Shown here piece after piece: positions 12,597-40,675 of a DNA stretch of 50,311 bases. The position numbers and the translations under genes were made by a program. Origin of the DNA: Clostridiaceae bacterium (GTDB taxonomy: Bacteria > Bacillota > Clostridia > Peptostreptococcales > T1SED10-28); assembly GCA_003553525.1 (NCBI GenBank), contig PWEO01000119.1:1-50311 (forward strand). Reading direction: 5' to 3'. The notes beneath the pieces are model-generated. The model was given only the letters and a program-made list of their open reading frames with translations. It made no database searches and had not been told where the DNA came from. Every line of letters begins with the position of its first letter. Position 1 is the stretch's first letter.

Positions 12597-13205
12597 TTAA
12601 AGTTTAATCCCCATTTCTCTCCTTCTAAGAGTAAAACCGGCGATTCCATAAAACCGAAGAATTCTATCAAGAACATCTTCTTCAAGTAACGTCTTAGGGA
12701 ATCCAAATTTATATAATTTTTCTTTTAACTTATCTACGGACTTCCCAGAAGCTTTTCCAAGATTTCCAATTCCCTCGGAAAAGGAGTTATTGTCGAATCC
12801 TAAAATATACATAATCCACATTTGATAGAGTTTATATTTATCTTCAAGTTCTGCAGGCCTTAAAACTTCTTCGTACAGTAAAACATGTGTAAAATACCCA
12901 ATATATAATAATTCTTTGAACAGCTTTTCTAATTCGAATATTTCATCCCTGTAAAGATAATTGATATTCCTGCGATAATACCCACCAAAACGAGGAGGAT
13001 GGTCGGTGACTCGACCAACACCTCGAAGCCCGGAACTCTGTAAATTCATTTCAGACTTTATGAATTTATCAAAACAGTACTCCGAAACTGCAAAGCCGTG
13101 ACTTTTCTTAAGATTGTTTACTTTTGTATCTACCACTTCCGCTTCCTCTTTAGAAATCAAAGGCTTAATTCTTTCGATACTATTGTTCAAAATTAATGGA
13201 TCCAT
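12597..13205 (-). CDS. Protein of unknown function, 202 residues
   Basis: I do not recognise this family. The product is soluble by appearance, with no signal peptide or membrane segment. The middle has SSGLRGVGRVTDHPPRFGG followed by YYRRNINYLYRDEI, then mostly helical, charged sequence and a basic C-terminus (LRRREMGIKL). One cysteine (in SEYCFDKF) is visible. The ATG at 13205 has a strong AAGGAGGG site and a TATAAT box upstream. It lies between the selenoprotein W-like gene and the Fur-family gene, all on the minus strand. Coding status is well supported by length, ribosome site and codon use. Confidence 0.8.
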   Translation of the reverse strand: MDPLILNNSIERIKPLISKEEAEVVDTKVNNLKKSHGFAVSEYCFDKFIKSEMNLQSSGLRGVGRVTDHPPRFGGYYRRNINYLYRDEIFELEKLFKELLYIGYFTHVLLYEEVLRPAELEDKYKLYQMWIMYILGFDNNSFSEGIGNLGKASGKSVDKLKEKLYKFGFPKTLLEEDVLDRILRFYGIAGFTLRRREMGIKL

Positions 13206-13337: not shown

Positions 13338-13376
13338 AAAAGAAAAAACTCTGCAAAAAAATCTACAGAGTTTTTA
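13338..13376 (-). terminator. Terminator of the selenoprotein W-like gene
   Basis: Stem AAAACTCTG pairing with CAGAGTTTT around a 12-base loop, flanked by A-runs on one side and T-runs on the other, so it can act in both directions. It lies just after the stop codon at 13391. Confidence 0.75.
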
Positions 13377-13390
13377 TATGAATTTTACAA

Positions 13391-13630
13391 TTATATTTCT
13401 GGATGTAATTGTATTCTTCGTATTACTTCTTCTACAGGAAATTTTACATTTTCCTTTTTGTTATTGAAAACTTCATGACCATCAACAGAAACCGTAAATA
13501 TCCCTCCACTGCTCTTAATAAGTTCCACGCTGGCTCCATGAATTTCCTTATTGATCTTAGCCTCTAAACTAGAGGCTTTATCTTGGTAGCCTCAGGAACC
13601 ACAATAAGTGATATTAATTTCCTTTGTCAT
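13391..13630 (-). CDS. SelW/SelT/SelH (Rdx)-family selenoprotein with in-frame UGA
   Basis: 79-residue product if the TGA at codon 13 (13592-13594) is read as selenocysteine. The N-terminus reads MTKEINITYCGSU, so the redox motif is CxxU, the hallmark of thioredoxin-like SelW/Rdx proteins. The rest (for example GASVELIKSSGGIFTVSVDG and a C-terminal helix) fits that fold. A hairpin with the geometry of a bacterial SECIS element starts just after the UGA. The window also encodes tRNA-Sec, SelA and SelB, so UGA readthrough is expected. The ATG at 13630 has GGGGGAG upstream and the gene ends in a terminator. Likely a thiol/selenol redox protein; its partner is unknown. Automatic callers split or miss it. 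Confidence 0.9.
13560..13594 (-). promoter_or_regulatory. Bacterial SECIS element (selenocysteine insertion hairpin)
   Basis: On the minus strand a perfect 7-bp stem GCCTCTA/TAGAGGC (13570-13576 with 13560-13566) closes a three-base GUU loop. The loop G lies about 23 bases after the UGA. This agrees with the known bacterial rule of a small apical loop with a G in its first positions, 16-37 bases from the UGA. It should bind the SelB C-terminal winged helices. Confidence 0.85.
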
Positions 13631-13800
13631 TTTAACTCCCCCTACAGTATAATTTTATATGATTCACTTTAACTATTATATATCCAAATAATAAAAAAAC
13701 AAACAATAGAATTTTTATGGATTGGTTTAAAAACTTTACGACTAGGTATAAATAATAGAAGTGCTTTATCATCAATTAAAAATGAAAAGGGGGGTTTGTT

Positions 13801-14947: not shown

Positions 14948-15388
14948 TCATTCTTTATTAGTTTGCATTTGCTTTCTAACAATCTCATAAGGGGGAACAA
15001 CCATCCCTTTATAATTTTTCATTCTTCCTGTTAGATTTTGAATTTGTTCCGTGACATAAGGCCAGATATGAAAATTCAGTTGATCCCTTAGGTCAGTATC
15101 TGAAAGCTCCAGCTCTTCTAATCCTTGAAAATAAATAAAAGAATTTAGTAATGCTGTGATTTCAAAGTGTCCCTGTACTATAAAATTAACTTGGGTTATA
15201 TATTTTATTTCTGAGGACTTGTCTTTATTTCTCAGGATATTACTGCTGATACGAATTGTCTGCTTTAATTTTTTTTTCGTATCTCCCTCAGTGACATCCC
15301 CTTTTTTAGAAGCATAAACATCCTTTTTCAAAGAAACTTCTTCTAAAAATACACCTTTTACAATAATCTCATAATCCATTACTCCCAT
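14948..15388 (-). CDS. Possible SecB-like chaperone, 146 residues
   Basis: Weak but consistent resemblance to SecB-family proteins: an N-terminal beta-rich part (YEIIVKGVFLEEVSLKKDV), a central VQGHFEI strand, and a C-terminal FHIWPYVTEQIQNLTGRM followed by a hydrophobic VVPPYEI, which mirrors the 'PYxRxxIxxLTxxxxxPPLxLPP' end of SecB-like proteins. SecB proper is a tetrameric export chaperone of proteobacteria; relatives in Firmicutes often pair with toxin-antitoxin modules or have no known role. No toxin gene is adjacent. It stands alone, reading towards the pirin terminator. Confidence 0.5.
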   Translation of the reverse strand: MGVMDYEIIVKGVFLEEVSLKKDVYASKKGDVTEGDTKKKLKQTIRISSNILRNKDKSSEIKYITQVNFIVQGHFEITALLNSFIYFQGLEELELSDTDLRDQLNFHIWPYVTEQIQNLTGRMKNYKGMVVPPYEIVRKQMQTNKE

Positions 15389-20091: not shown

Positions 20092-20188
20092 TGGCGGGAG
20101 TACATAGGAATCGAACCTACCCAAGAGGCTACTAACCCCTCGTACTGGTTTTGAAGACCAGAGGGCACACCAGTACCCATCTACTCCC
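20092..20188 (-). tRNA. selC: tRNA-Sec (anticodon UCA)
   Basis: 97 bases including an encoded CCA. The anticodon loop is CTTCAAA within a 5-bp stem CTGGT/ACCAG, giving UCA that reads UGA. The acceptor arm GGGAGTA pairs with TACTCCC with discriminator G; the eighth acceptor pair expected for tRNA-Sec looks like G-G here. A long variable arm (stem GAGG/CCTC) and a T-arm with GGTTCGATT are present. It lies 65 bases after selB and is probably co-transcribed. Confidence 0.95.
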
Positions 20189-20253: not shown

Positions 20254-22158
20254 CTACTGATTTATAACACGCCGATCTCCCTCACGACGAGTAACACCTT
20301 CTACATCATATTTTTCAAGTAGAGACACCGCAATCTTGCGGTTACTGCCAAGCATATCGCGAAATTCTGCAATGGAAACCACTCCATTTTTTTGTAAGTA
20401 TTCGATTAAAACAGCTTTAGCCTTTTCGTAATTTTCACGAGTTATATAGATATCCTCCTGAATATTAACAAGCTTCCGAGCCATCAGCAGTTGAAAAACT
20501 TGTTGTACGGTAGTTTCATCATAGCTTTTGCTAACTGCCGATTCAATTTCTTTCTTCTTTGGAGGATTAAAAGGATCCTCGTTTATCTTGTCTAAAATTA
20601 AATCCATAACATTCTCCTGATCTTTTGTAAGAAGAACTTCGAATTCTTTTAATGAAAGATACTGTTCCTTGATAGTAATTAGCCCTTCTTTTTCAAAGAG
20701 CTTGTAGAGCACATCAGTTACCTTTGTACGAAAGTTTTTTTCTAACTTACTTTTTAGCTCTTCTTTTAACATTCCCGGTTGCAAGGGGTATTCTTTATGG
20801 AATTGGTTGAGTTTATCCAATGTATAAATTTTAAGTTTCTCATAAAAGCTTCGATGAATATAGCCCTCTTTTCCTACAGAAAATATTTTCTTTTCAATGT
20901 TCAGTTTTTCGACATTGTTTTGAATTGTTTTCTTATCTTCAGATAGTTTTACTGTCAAAAAATCGACAGTCGGAAGCTGAGGACTATGTTTTTCAATCAT
21001 TTTCTCCAGAACAAAAATAAAATCTCCGCTTTCCTTTAATTTTAGTTCTTCCAACACATTCTGTTCAAAACGTTTATGTTTTTCCGGATAGGGATCAATA
21101 ACCAGCAACCCTCCTATAGTTTCCATAGGAGAATACAACCTTACAATGATTTTATCTTTTTTCTTGATCGCAATTTTTTCTTCGAGACGTAGTTGAACAT
21201 ACACTTGATCTTCCGATTCCGCCTCTTCCTTATCCAAGAGTACGATTCTTCCGACGACTTCATTGGAATCGCAATAAACTTTAACGCGGGTCCGATTTTC
21301 AATCAGGCGCTGATAATTTTTCAACACGGTAAGTTTTCCATCGATCATCATGGTTGTATCCATCGAGCCTTTTTCAACCAAGACGTTTCCTCTGTTAATA
21401 TCTTCTTTCTTTACGTTTGAAATATTTAACGCTACCCGTTGACCTGAAAATGCCTCTTTTGCATCTTCTCCATATGTTTGTACTGAACGAATACGCACCT
21501 CCTGATGTTGAGGAAGAAGTTCTAAGATATCTTCCGCTTTAACATGGCCTTCAAGTAGTGTTCCGGTAATTACAGTCCCGAAACCCTTAATAGAAAAAAC
21601 CCTATCGATTGGTAGTCTCACAGCCCGTTGGTCTTTATTTTTTTCAATCTCCTCCGATAATTGATCAATTTCTTCAATCAGCTCCGGGATCCCTTCTTTA
21701 CTAATAGAATCCACGGGAAGAATTTTAGCATTTTCCAAAAAAGTACCCTTTACAACCTCTTTAACCTCATCTTTTACTAATTCTAAAAATTCATCATCCA
21801 CCATGGACTTCTTTGTAATAACAATAACCCCTACTTCCACATCCAATAGTGATAGAATGTCAAGATGTTCCACGGTCTGAGGCATGACTCCTTCATCAGC
21901 AGCCACAACAAACATGACGATATCCATTCCTCCAACACCGGCAAGCATATGTTTGATGAATTTTTCGTGACCGGGAACATCAATAATTCCCGCTCGCTTT
22001 CGATTTGGTAAATCAAAATAGCTAAAACCTAACTCAATAGAAATTCCTCTTTTTTTCTCTTCTTTCAGGCGATCAGTATCCCGATTGGTTAAGGCTTTTA
22101 TTAAGGTGGTTTTACCATGATCTATGTGGCCTGCCGTTCCTATGATGATATTTTCCAA
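20254..22158 (-). CDS. selB: Selenocysteine-specific elongation factor SelB
   Basis: Delivers Sec-tRNA to ribosomes paused at UGA next to a SECIS hairpin. 634 residues: an EF-Tu-like GTPase (P-loop GHIDHGKT at 10-17, DVPGH at 60-64), beta-barrel domains, and four C-terminal winged helices that bind SECIS RNA. The G4 motif, normally T/NKxD, reads TKKS at residues 115-118, an unusual change at the guanine-specificity Asp; MVD follows directly. It lies 21 bases after selA and before tRNA-Sec. A local client mRNA is the SelW-like gene at 13391-13630. Confidence 0.97.
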   Translation of the reverse strand: MENIIIGTAGHIDHGKTTLIKALTNRDTDRLKEEKKRGISIELGFSYFDLPNRKRAGIIDVPGHEKFIKHMLAGVGGMDIVMFVVAADEGVMPQTVEHLDILSLLDVEVGVIVITKKSMVDDEFLELVKDEVKEVVKGTFLENAKILPVDSISKEGIPELIEEIDQLSEEIEKNKDQRAVRLPIDRVFSIKGFGTVITGTLLEGHVKAEDILELLPQHQEVRIRSVQTYGEDAKEAFSGQRVALNISNVKKEDINRGNVLVEKGSMDTTMMIDGKLTVLKNYQRLIENRTRVKVYCDSNEVVGRIVLLDKEEAESEDQVYVQLRLEEKIAIKKKDKIIVRLYSPMETIGGLLVIDPYPEKHKRFEQNVLEELKLKESGDFIFVLEKMIEKHSPQLPTVDFLTVKLSEDKKTIQNNVEKLNIEKKIFSVGKEGYIHRSFYEKLKIYTLDKLNQFHKEYPLQPGMLKEELKSKLEKNFRTKVTDVLYKLFEKEGLITIKEQYLSLKEFEVLLTKDQENVMDLILDKINEDPFNPPKKKEIESAVSKSYDETTVQQVFQLLMARKLVNIQEDIYITRENYEKAKAVLIEYLQKNGVVSIAEFRDMLGSNRKIAVSLLEKYDVEGVTRREGDRRVINQ

Positions 22159-22179: not shown

Positions 22180-23586
22180 CTACTTATCTATTAAAGTGTC
22201 CTTCAATGTTGAAGCAATATAAGCAAAATCTCTTTCCTTTATCGTTCGAGGGTCCAAAATCATGCTGTCTTTGTGAATTCTTGGTATAATCGGAATTCGG
22301 GCTTCTCTCAATTGTTTTTCCACAGCAGAGATTGCCTTGTTTTGAAAATCAATAACAACTATTTCTGTTTTTAACTTTTCTAAGGGTAGTGAACCTCCAC
22401 CTACTTTAGAGTAGTCTTCCTGTGTAGTTATAATTACTGAATCACCACATTTCTTCTCAATTAGATCCTTTAGATTTTTCGCTTTTATTTCCAAAGTTTT
22501 ATAGTTTATTGTTAACATTTCCAAACTAGGAATTTTACTCATGATCGAGTCTTCCTGTAAATAATAGGACAATATCATTTCCAGAGATGAAACGGTCATT
22601 TTATCAATGCGAAAAGCTCTCGTTAATGGATTATTCTTCATCTTATCAATCCATTTTTTCTTTCCTATAATAATACCTGCTTGAGGACCTCCTAGGAGTT
22701 TGTCCCCGCTAAAAGTAATAATATCAGCTCCTGATTTAACACTTTCCTGTACTGTAGGTTCATGGGCTAAACCATATTTTTCGAGATCAATCAGCACGCC
22801 ACTGCCTAGATCTTCAATCACTGGTAGGTTCTTTGCTTTACTTAGATTCACAAGTTCCTCTAAGGAAACATCTTTTGTAAATCCAACAATTTTATAATTG
22901 CTCGTATGGACTTTTAACAAAGCTCCGGTTTCATCTCGAATATTTTCTTCATAGTCTCGTAAATGTGTTTTATTTGTAGTACCTACATCTACTAAAGTTG
23001 CTCCACTTTGCTCCATCACATCGGGAATGCGAAAGGCTCCCCCGATTTCAACTAATTCTCCCCGGGATACAATAACTTCTTTACCCTTAGCAATGCTACT
23101 GAGAACCAATAGTACTGCTGCGGCATTATTGTTTACAACTAATGCGTCTTCCGCTCCGGTTAAAAATTTGATTTTTTCCACAAGGTGACTGTAGCGGCTA
23201 CCTCTTTTGCCGGTAGTCAGGTCCATCTCCAGGTTTGAATAGTTCGATAGAATTTTAAAGAAATCTTCTTTCATTTCTTCTGAAAAAAAAGCCCTTCCTA
23301 AATTAGTATGAAGTACGGTTCCTGTTCCATTAATTACTTGTTTTAAATTCATTTCTATAAATTGACTGATCTGTTTTATCAGCATTCCAATGACCTTTTC
23401 CTCTGTTAAAGGAGTTAATTCCGGATCTTGTTGCTTTAATACAAGGTTGCGGTATTCACCGATTATTGAGCGAAGTATATGAGTTACAAGATCGAACGAA
23501 GCTTTTTTAATAAGGACTTTAGTCTCGCTTCGTTGTAACAATCGGTCGATTGATGGAATTTCTCTTAACAGTTGATTTTTATCCAT
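22180..23586 (-). CDS. selA: L-seryl-tRNA(Sec) selenium transferase SelA
   Basis: PLP enzyme that turns Ser-tRNA(Sec) into Sec-tRNA(Sec) using selenophosphate. 468 residues, full length, with the conserved INGTGTVLHTNLGRA near 85-99 and the PLP lysine K296 in FSGDKLLGGPQAG. Selenophosphate synthetase (SelD) must be elsewhere. It follows comEA by 17 bases and is followed by selB, so the whole insertion machinery is in one transcript. Confidence 0.97.
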   Translation of the reverse strand: MDKNQLLREIPSIDRLLQRSETKVLIKKASFDLVTHILRSIIGEYRNLVLKQQDPELTPLTEEKVIGMLIKQISQFIEMNLKQVINGTGTVLHTNLGRAFFSEEMKEDFFKILSNYSNLEMDLTTGKRGSRYSHLVEKIKFLTGAEDALVVNNNAAAVLLVLSSIAKGKEVIVSRGELVEIGGAFRIPDVMEQSGATLVDVGTTNKTHLRDYEENIRDETGALLKVHTSNYKIVGFTKDVSLEELVNLSKAKNLPVIEDLGSGVLIDLEKYGLAHEPTVQESVKSGADIITFSGDKLLGGPQAGIIIGKKKWIDKMKNNPLTRAFRIDKMTVSSLEMILSYYLQEDSIMSKIPSLEMLTINYKTLEIKAKNLKDLIEKKCGDSVIITTQEDYSKVGGGSLPLEKLKTEIVVIDFQNKAISAVEKQLREARIPIIPRIHKDSMILDPRTIKERDFAYIASTLKDTLIDK

Positions 23587-37807: not shown

Positions 37808-40675
37808 TTAATTTTCAGGTTCTTCAAGATCTTCCTCGTCATTCTCAAGATCTTCATCCTCTGAATTCCCGTATTCTTGAGTCTCATTCATTCCTAAATA
37901 TTCCGCCACAATTTCTCTGAAAATCGGTGCTGAGTACCCACCGGTTCCTCCTTGGTGAATAACGACTGCAACAGCAATTTCCGGGTCCTCATAAGGGGCA
38001 AATCCGATAAACCAGGAGTAATTATCATAATCCTCTTTAAATTGATCCAACTCTTGATTCCCGATATTAGAATTTAATGCCTTGATTGCTTCTCTCATGG
38101 CGAATCCTTCATCCAAAAGTCTAAGCTGGTTCGGGTTAGCATCTCTTAATTCTTCCATTTTTCCATAAACTTGTTCTTCGGTTACACGAAAACGGCTTAG
38201 ATGATCCAGAAGATACTCTACTTCATCCGGCGGTGGAATTTTACCTGTTAACTGAGCTGTACCGGTTTTACCAGCAACCTTTAATGGGAAGTCTTGAAAA
38301 TATCTCCAAGGAGTTCCTTCTTCCGTGGTCCTAAGCATCCCCTCGTTAATTATGTCAAGATGACGGGGGTTATTTAGTTCCAATTGGTTAAGTATCGCTG
38401 GTTCTTTTTTTTCATATTCTCCCGTCAACGGATCTTCTATTCCATCAATTACAGAAACTTTATACCTAGTTCCGCCATTCGCAAGAATTGCCATGAAATT
38501 GGCCATTTGAATCGGAGTGTATTGGTGCTCCCCTTGACCTATAGAAAGATTTAGTACGTCCATCTCTGTCCAGTATGCCTGATTAAAATAGCTATACTTA
38601 ATGATATCCACCCAGCCTTCACCGTTGTCAATTTTTTCAATGTATTCTCTTTTTATACCGATTTCCAGTAAACGGTTATACAGCTCTCCTCTGGAAGGAT
38701 TTTCATCGGTCCATGAGATAATCTGATCAATTATCTCTTCCCTTGGATCTTCGGAAAGATCCACAATTTCCGGATCTAAATGTTCCATGCGTAAATCATT
38801 AAAGAGTTTCCATCGAAGAGAACGTTCAATACCTCTGGTTTTGGACTCTTCGCTGGGGATTATACCAGATCTTTCTCTCGGTACTCTAATTTCAATTCCC
38901 GACGCCTCATTGAGCCCAAGTTCTTTGGAAAACTCCAACATCTGACCCACACTCATACTAAAGGGCAGTGCTCGTTCCCTAGAATAGTCCCAATTATTAA
39001 GTACTGATGCAAAATAAATATTATTGGAATCCGCAATGGCCTCTACTAGATTTTGACTTCCCAGCAACCCTCTATTCTGATTCCAAAGCCAGTTACCAAA
39101 AATCTGATTGCCATCTCTCCCCAATTCTATATAGCCGGTATCACGCATACGATAATTGGGATCGAGTCCATGTTCCAGGGCAGCAAGTCCCACAACCATT
39201 TTATACACGGATCCGGGCTGTACCGCAGAGCTCAAGGCCGTATTTCGCAATGGAGCCGGCGAAAGACTGTTATTCGGATTTTCCGGCTGCAGTGATTGCC
39301 AGTCTTCACTGCTGATACCCGTTGTAAATAGATTCGGGTCAAAGTCCGGATAATTTGCCATTGCCAAGACTTTTCCTGTTTTTACATCCAGTACAACTGC
39401 TGATCCACTTTGGGCTTTATCATAAATCCTACCCTGAGTATTTTGAAAGGTGTCTGTCCCCCAGGCAGTTTCATAGGTCCCTCCCCGTTGGATGGTATTG
39501 ATTACCTCTTCTAATATATCTTCCGTTTTTCTCTGTAAATTTTTATCAATGCTAGTATGAATATTTTTACCGGGGATCGGATTTATGGTTTCAAGGGTCT
39601 CTTGTCTGCGCCCTCTAGAATCCACTAAAACCTCTTCTAACCCTCGTTTCCCTTGAAGATCAAGCTCAAAAGCATGTTCAAGCCCGACTTTACCAATGAT
39701 ATCACTTTTTTCATAGCCTAATTCATCAACATAATTCTCAATCTCTGTTTCCGTTGCGATTCTACCCACGTGGCCGATAATATGAGATGCTAAGGACTCA
39801 TTGGGATAATGCCGGATAGGTTCTATTACTATGTTCACACCGGGGAATCTATGAATACGTTCTTCAATAGCAATAACCGATTCCTTGCTAATATCTTCCA
39901 TAATTGTAACCGGCTGATATTGAAAATAAGACCCTTGCCGTTGAATCTGATCTCTAAGTATCATTATATCTCGGGCCTCTTCATTAGAAAGCTGATCATC
40001 AAGGTCAAAAACTTCCTTTCGAATATATTCAAAAGACTCTTCTGCACTCAAATCATAATCAGTAATCCCGTAGTTGCCCATCCATCGCTCTTTATGCAAT
40101 TCTTCCCGAAATTTCCAGCTACTGATGGATATCGGAACCGAAATTTCAGTTGCTTCACGAATAAAATATTGTTGTGCATCGCCATCATCAAGATCTTCTA
40201 TTCCGTATCGATATTTAAGGACTTCGAAGGCTTCTTTCGCATTTTCCGTTTCCTCTAAATCATATCGTTCTTTCCATTGGTCCACGTTTTGATCGTAAAT
40301 AAAGTAAGGTTTCCTATCCTCATTAAAAACAATTGGAAAATCATCTTCTTCTAGATCTTCATTTTTTCGAAGAATTCTCATCAATTCAAATGCAAGTTCA
40401 TTGATATCCGTATCCACAGTTTCGTTTCTCATAATTTGGATATTGTAACTGGGATTGTTCCCTGCCAAAATTTCTCCATCCCGCGAATAAATTTCTCCTC
40501 GCGGAGCTGGTGTAGAAACAGTTTTCAATATACTGTTTGCAGCACGATTTCGATAAGTTTCCCCTTCCACAATCATTAAGCCCGCCAACCGAAAAATAAT
40601 TAATGCAAAAACTACTAAGATTGCTACCGTTAAAATTATATATCTTCGTGTGATTTTCTTATCCATTGTCATCAT
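37808..40675 (-). CDS. mrdA: Penicillin-binding protein 2 (elongation transpeptidase), unusually long
   Basis: Class B PBP that cross-links peptidoglycan in the elongation complex. 955 residues, well above the roughly 600-720 usual for the family. Features in order: N-terminal membrane helix (14-35), PBP dimerisation region with TPAPRGEIYSRDG, transpeptidase with SxxK at S489-K492 (PGSVYK), SNN at 550-552 and KTG at 803-805. Extra sequence lies around 95-250 in the N-terminal domain, between SNN and KTG (about 615-705) and after KTG (about 815-880). The tail is strongly acidic. Active-site residues are intact. Start is ATG 40675 or the ATG one codon later. Lies between mreD and minC. Confidence 0.93.
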   Translation of the reverse strand: MMTMDKKITRRYIILTVAILVVFALIIFRLAGLMIVEGETYRNRAANSILKTVSTPAPRGEIYSRDGEILAGNNPSYNIQIMRNETVDTDINELAFELMRILRKNEDLEEDDFPIVFNEDRKPYFIYDQNVDQWKERYDLEETENAKEAFEVLKYRYGIEDLDDGDAQQYFIREATEISVPISISSWKFREELHKERWMGNYGITDYDLSAEESFEYIRKEVFDLDDQLSNEEARDIMILRDQIQRQGSYFQYQPVTIMEDISKESVIAIEERIHRFPGVNIVIEPIRHYPNESLASHIIGHVGRIATETEIENYVDELGYEKSDIIGKVGLEHAFELDLQGKRGLEEVLVDSRGRRQETLETINPIPGKNIHTSIDKNLQRKTEDILEEVINTIQRGGTYETAWGTDTFQNTQGRIYDKAQSGSAVVLDVKTGKVLAMANYPDFDPNLFTTGISSEDWQSLQPENPNNSLSPAPLRNTALSSAVQPGSVYKMVVGLAALEHGLDPNYRMRDTGYIELGRDGNQIFGNWLWNQNRGLLGSQNLVEAIADSNNIYFASVLNNWDYSRERALPFSMSVGQMLEFSKELGLNEASGIEIRVPRERSGIIPSEESKTRGIERSLRWKLFNDLRMEHLDPEIVDLSEDPREEIIDQIISWTDENPSRGELYNRLLEIGIKREYIEKIDNGEGWVDIIKYSYFNQAYWTEMDVLNLSIGQGEHQYTPIQMANFMAILANGGTRYKVSVIDGIEDPLTGEYEKKEPAILNQLELNNPRHLDIINEGMLRTTEEGTPWRYFQDFPLKVAGKTGTAQLTGKIPPPDEVEYLLDHLSRFRVTEEQVYGKMEELRDANPNQLRLLDEGFAMREAIKALNSNIGNQELDQFKEDYDNYSWFIGFAPYEDPEIAVAVVIHQGGTGGYSAPIFREIVAEYLGMNETQEYGNSEDEDLENDEEDLEEPEN

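Follow-up and report, generated by a model that had tools for sequence, protein, structure and literature searches.

We found that the 50,311-nt stretch of Clostridiaceae DNA analyzed here (hereafter, the window) carries, on its minus strand at 13391..13630, a gene that we are highly confident encodes a bacterial Rdx-family SelW-like selenoprotein, in which UGA-13 would be decoded through SelB and a downstream hairpin to give a thioredoxin-like CxxU product. The selW-like gene comprises 79 codons and a TAA stop, running from an ATG at 13630-13628 to the TAA at 13393-13391, and its translation (MTKEINITYCGSUGYQDKASS...) contains a single in-frame TGA at codon 13 (13592..13594, minus strand), the predicted selenocysteine of the motif C10-G-S-U13. 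A first-pass annotation of this DNA had described an open reading frame interrupted solely by TGA at codon 13, within YCGSU, without giving a strand; the description is true for the minus-strand frame 13630..13391, and a plus-strand reading of 13391-13630 was rejected since that frame has stops. The gene had also been credited with its own ribosome site and terminator. The former is a strong ribosome binding site, AGGGGGAG (13636..13643, minus strand), read directly from the sequence 5 nt upstream of the ATG, while the latter is better described as a terminator-like A/T-rich hairpin with a T-run, located 3' of the gene at 13344..13375 on the same strand. Calling the selenoprotein overlooked is fair for this gene, although the family and its annotation misses are already in print (PMC1088965, PMC1794560, PMC4607533).

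When the TGA was read through, the protein matched PF10262 (Rdx) over its whole length (E 6.8e-15; 55.5 bits against a cut-off of 22.6) and TIGR02174 at 49.3 bits (cut-off 34.2), and it scored 70.5 bits (E 1e-19) with NF041051, the SelTWH_Campy equivalog, which is under that model's cut-off of 88. C10 and residue 13 are invariant in 21 homologues, and the CxxU redox motif sits after strand 1. An AlphaFold model of the protein (pLDDT 85.5) predicts the order strand-helix-strand-strand-strand-helix, and the best 22 structural matches returned by Foldseek were all SelW-family structures, mouse SelW included, with TM values of 0.81-0.90 to 2obk, 2fa8, 2p0g, 2ojl, and 3dex and of 0.64 to mouse SelW. 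The two profiles passed and the resemblance of the model to SelW-family crystal structures bear out the SelW/Rdx-like CxxU identity proposed at first pass. We regard this homology across the TGA, as judged from sequence, rather than the stem alone, as the decisive evidence for the gene. In this reading, the product consists of one thioredoxin-like domain whose CxxU redox pair lies where strand 1 ends. CxxC and CxxU proteins on this fold have a thiol/selenol redox role and, because this is established knowledge, the same function is likely, by analogy, for the SelW-like protein; it would most likely be a cytosolic thiol/selenol oxidoreductase, whose redox activity and partners we infer.

To follow codon 13 across relatives, we compared genomes at two depths. 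An Rdx gene is present in 26 of 98 relatives, each with exactly one TGA inside the match, and with the protein as query a homologue was found in 38 of 297 genomes of the order, with one TGA in every match listed (one G004 match also extends over its final TAA); the window's own genome is counted in both figures. No Cys form of the selW-like gene occurred among the homologues in these 297 genomes, which agrees exactly with the 2006 survey, where Cys forms were noted as rare in Sec-using organisms (PMC1794560), and the 35 distinct homologue sequences that we inspected by eye keep [YF]CxxU[G]. Values of dN/dS could be calculated against two near relatives and, downstream of the UGA, came to ~0.09 and 0.10, indicating purifying selection. 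A scan of the genome contigs of close relatives yielded one further locus, in the G001 record, and no relatives were encoded among phage records. One genome (G130; L041, G130:C1) has two different SelW-like genes, both with a TGA.

A lone in-frame TGA would look alike if the gene were a pseudogene or a sequencing error, with a former Cys codon (TGC or TGT) turned into a stop. However, the same TGA is found in all homologues recovered from the order, there is no nearby Cys version from which the gene could have decayed, and both the reading frame and the low dN/dS continue beyond the TGA. The first-pass annotation had proposed that close relatives lacking Cys or Sec at this position would mark a pseudogene, and all homologues carry TGA there. 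The common TGA and the purifying selection downstream of it refute the pseudogene reading at the level of sequence comparison, and we give it next to no credence. We consider it equally improbable that the TGA is read as another residue under a changed code (Trp or Gly) or passed by low-level suppression: we found no specific support for such a reading, and the TGA occupies the position of Sec in the CxxU of SelW, in a genome where tRNA-Sec, SelA, SelB, and SelD are all present. Moreover, of the 30 TGA-containing read-through frames with at least 70 codons listed for the window, only the selW-like frame has a known-family redox motif at the TGA; when the window's TGA-interrupted frames were judged by eye, no other one stood out as a selenoprotein candidate by a family motif at that codon.

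The machinery for selenocysteine lies in the same window, as had been claimed. The genes for tRNA-Sec (anticodon UCA; 20092..20188), the Sec-specific elongation factor SelB (20254..22158), and the Sec synthase SelA (22180..23586) were all located on the minus strand, at 6.5-10 kb from the selW-like gene. Since SelD and GrdA, also present in the genome, each contain their own TGA, Sec decoding is in use in this organism. Across the order, SelB was found in 37 of the 38 genomes with a SelW-like gene and in 173 of the 259 without one (Fisher P 1.3e-5, a test that ignores the kinship of the genomes), and the sole SelB-less genome with a SelW-like gene, G004, is 79% complete. Together, these findings suggest that the UGA at codon 13 is almost certainly read as selenocysteine, which would be inserted when SelB with Sec-tRNA binds the hairpin just downstream.

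This bSECIS-like hairpin, AGCCUCUA-GUU-UAGAGGCU, occupies 13559..13577 on the minus strand. It had been described as a 7-bp stem with a GUU loop 23 bases after the UGA; the GUU apical loop and the spacing stand, with the loop beginning after 22 nt and its G being nucleotide 23, but the stem is 8 bp long. Published limits for bSECIS elements comprise a loop of 3-9 nt, an upper stem of 4-16 bp, a G in the first two loop positions, a spacing of 16-37 nt, and an MFE of <= -7.5 kcal/mol (PMC13188914). With an energy of -10.3 to -12.5 kcal/mol, the window's hairpin falls within every one of them, so the known bacterial SECIS geometry proposed for it holds; the -7.5 kcal/mol criterion was applied with a home-made filter rather than bSECISearch. 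When the same peptide was synonymously recoded, an equally good stem arose in 0.2% of trials (P about 0.002). In chance rates drawn from the window only, stems at least as good follow 8 of 1828 TGAs (both strands, the selW-like gene counted) and 1 of the 56 TGAs with at least 60 open codons downstream, this one being the selW-like gene itself, and ~4% of random TGAs (10/250) pass when the published limits are applied strictly. On its own, the stem is weak evidence and does not rise above chance.

Comparison with homologues showed where the hairpin is conserved. In a gap-free alignment of 12 near relatives, the covariation score was 0.307 compared to 0.194 in shuffles (0/500), 87.5% of cells were paired compared to at most 46% when the partners were slid, and three pairs had changed on both sides. 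The stems of two near relatives, G002 and G004, contain mismatches. Beyond the near clade, the loop moves to +17 to +20 and many homologues fail the energy limit, such that 11 of 35 pass the strict published limits; variability of bacterial SECIS elements has been described before (PMC13188914, PMC12013277). Conservation across species, put forward at first pass as a check on the hairpin, is thus seen with covariation in the near clade and is not uniform in the wider family, where position and strength vary. This wide variation in strength and loop position, together with the overlap of the stem with conserved codons, is what would be expected if the selenoprotein were real but the hairpin incidental to the KASSLEAK codons, the true signal being another or looser structure. 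On the other hand, the synonymous-recoding P of 0.002 for the window's gene speaks against an incidental stem, as do paired changes that maintain the stem while also altering amino acids, such as UCU/GAG to GCU/GCA, which replaces S-E with A-A. We therefore consider an incidental hairpin quite unlikely and favor SelB-dependent decoding through the hairpin at 13559..13577.

The selW-like gene holds the same position in four species of its genus, flanked by a divergent pirin gene on one side and a fur-type regulator on the other, and selB-selA is a few kb off (G004 is without the sel part in this comparison only because of a contig end). Outside the genus, the neighbors of SelW-like genes differ. 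Because this synteny does not extend beyond the genus, proximity to selAB characterizes the genus and does not mark a conserved unit. No conserved gene partner emerged, with lineage-specific neighbors only, such as GAPDH in 7 of 49, and context therefore does not pin down the function of the SelW-like protein. Elsewhere on the minus strand of the window, the genes at 12597-13205 and 14948-15388 are conserved in the genus without a Pfam or NCBIfam match, and the former is fast-evolving (~51% identity to G001 and G002, compared to >80% for its neighbors). A 955-aa penicillin-binding protein is encoded at 37808-40675 (minus strand), and the match of its transpeptidase and dimerisation domains in several separated pieces suggests that its sequence contains large inserts.

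In five genomes from one family of the same phylum, we observed Rdx (CxxU) fused to DUF2703 in genes whose penultimate codon is a second in-frame TGA (fusion loci L066-L069 and L071, in G507, G307, G457, G482, and G393; also L091 and L092). Just 3' of the second TGA lies CCCGCA-GTT-TGCGGG followed by a T-run, with SECIS geometry and a loop at about +19. This hairpin could double as SECIS and transcription terminator; a plain stop and terminator explain the second TGA equally well. In another family, a fusion (L070/L094; G443:C12) has Arg in place of the first TGA and apparently Gly at the last, and G443 retains SelB despite this. We found no literature joining DUF2703 and selenoproteins. The fusion gene of G457 adjoins ArsR, an SBF/ACR3-type transporter, ArsD, and two ArsA genes, and that of G507 adjoins ArsR, an SBF/ACR3-type transporter, and another DUF2703 gene. 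The proximity of double-TGA fusions to genes for ArsR, an ACR3-type transporter, ArsD, and ArsA hints at a role for the small SelW-like proteins of Clostridia in metal(loid)/arsenic thiol chemistry and not in general redox defence, a reading that we consider unlikely; the neighborhood of the window's own selW-like gene holds no arsenic-related hint.

Our findings correct the annotation at a gene that standard gene calling would cut short or pass over. They contribute a Clostridial SelW that is well supported and has a covarying bSECIS, together with 38 or more homologous genomes that use TGA only; knowledge of selenoprotein W is unchanged by this gene. SelW-like proteins were the most abundant selenoprotein family in Sargasso Sea data (PMC1088965), and the 2006 survey reported them in Alkaliphilus, Desulfotomaculum, Geobacter, Desulfotalea, and Symbiobacterium (PMC1794560). 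In Epsilonproteobacteria, SelW genes were missed in genome annotations (PMC4607533), and full-length translation of Campylobacter jejuni SelW was demonstrated by Ribo-seq and proteomics (PMC11955535). The C. jejuni protein (CJnc60; PMC11955535; NF041051) is likewise ~80 aa, annotation-missed, and made from a UGA read by tRNA-Sec, but it has experimental proof, while the window's protein is a relative rather than the same equivalog (70.5 < 88), with Sec predicted. Mouse SelW (2npb) shares the thioredoxin-like fold and a CxxU at the same place at ~27% identity, but the SECIS of eukaryotes is located in the 3' UTR and the window's in the coding region. The closest likeness is to the bacterial SelW-like selenoproteins (PMC1088965, PMC1794560, PMC9312934, PMC13188914), which have the same PF10262 domain, CxxU, Sec position, and downstream bSECIS, and whose listed Clostridial members already include Alkaliphilus metalliredigenes and Desulfotomaculum reducens. 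The window's gene differs from these in its species and its GUU loop at +22, with structure and mechanism no different; since bacterial SelW-like selenoproteins, a family known from anaerobic species, were described in 2005-2006, Clostridia included, it is a real but ordinary addition to them.
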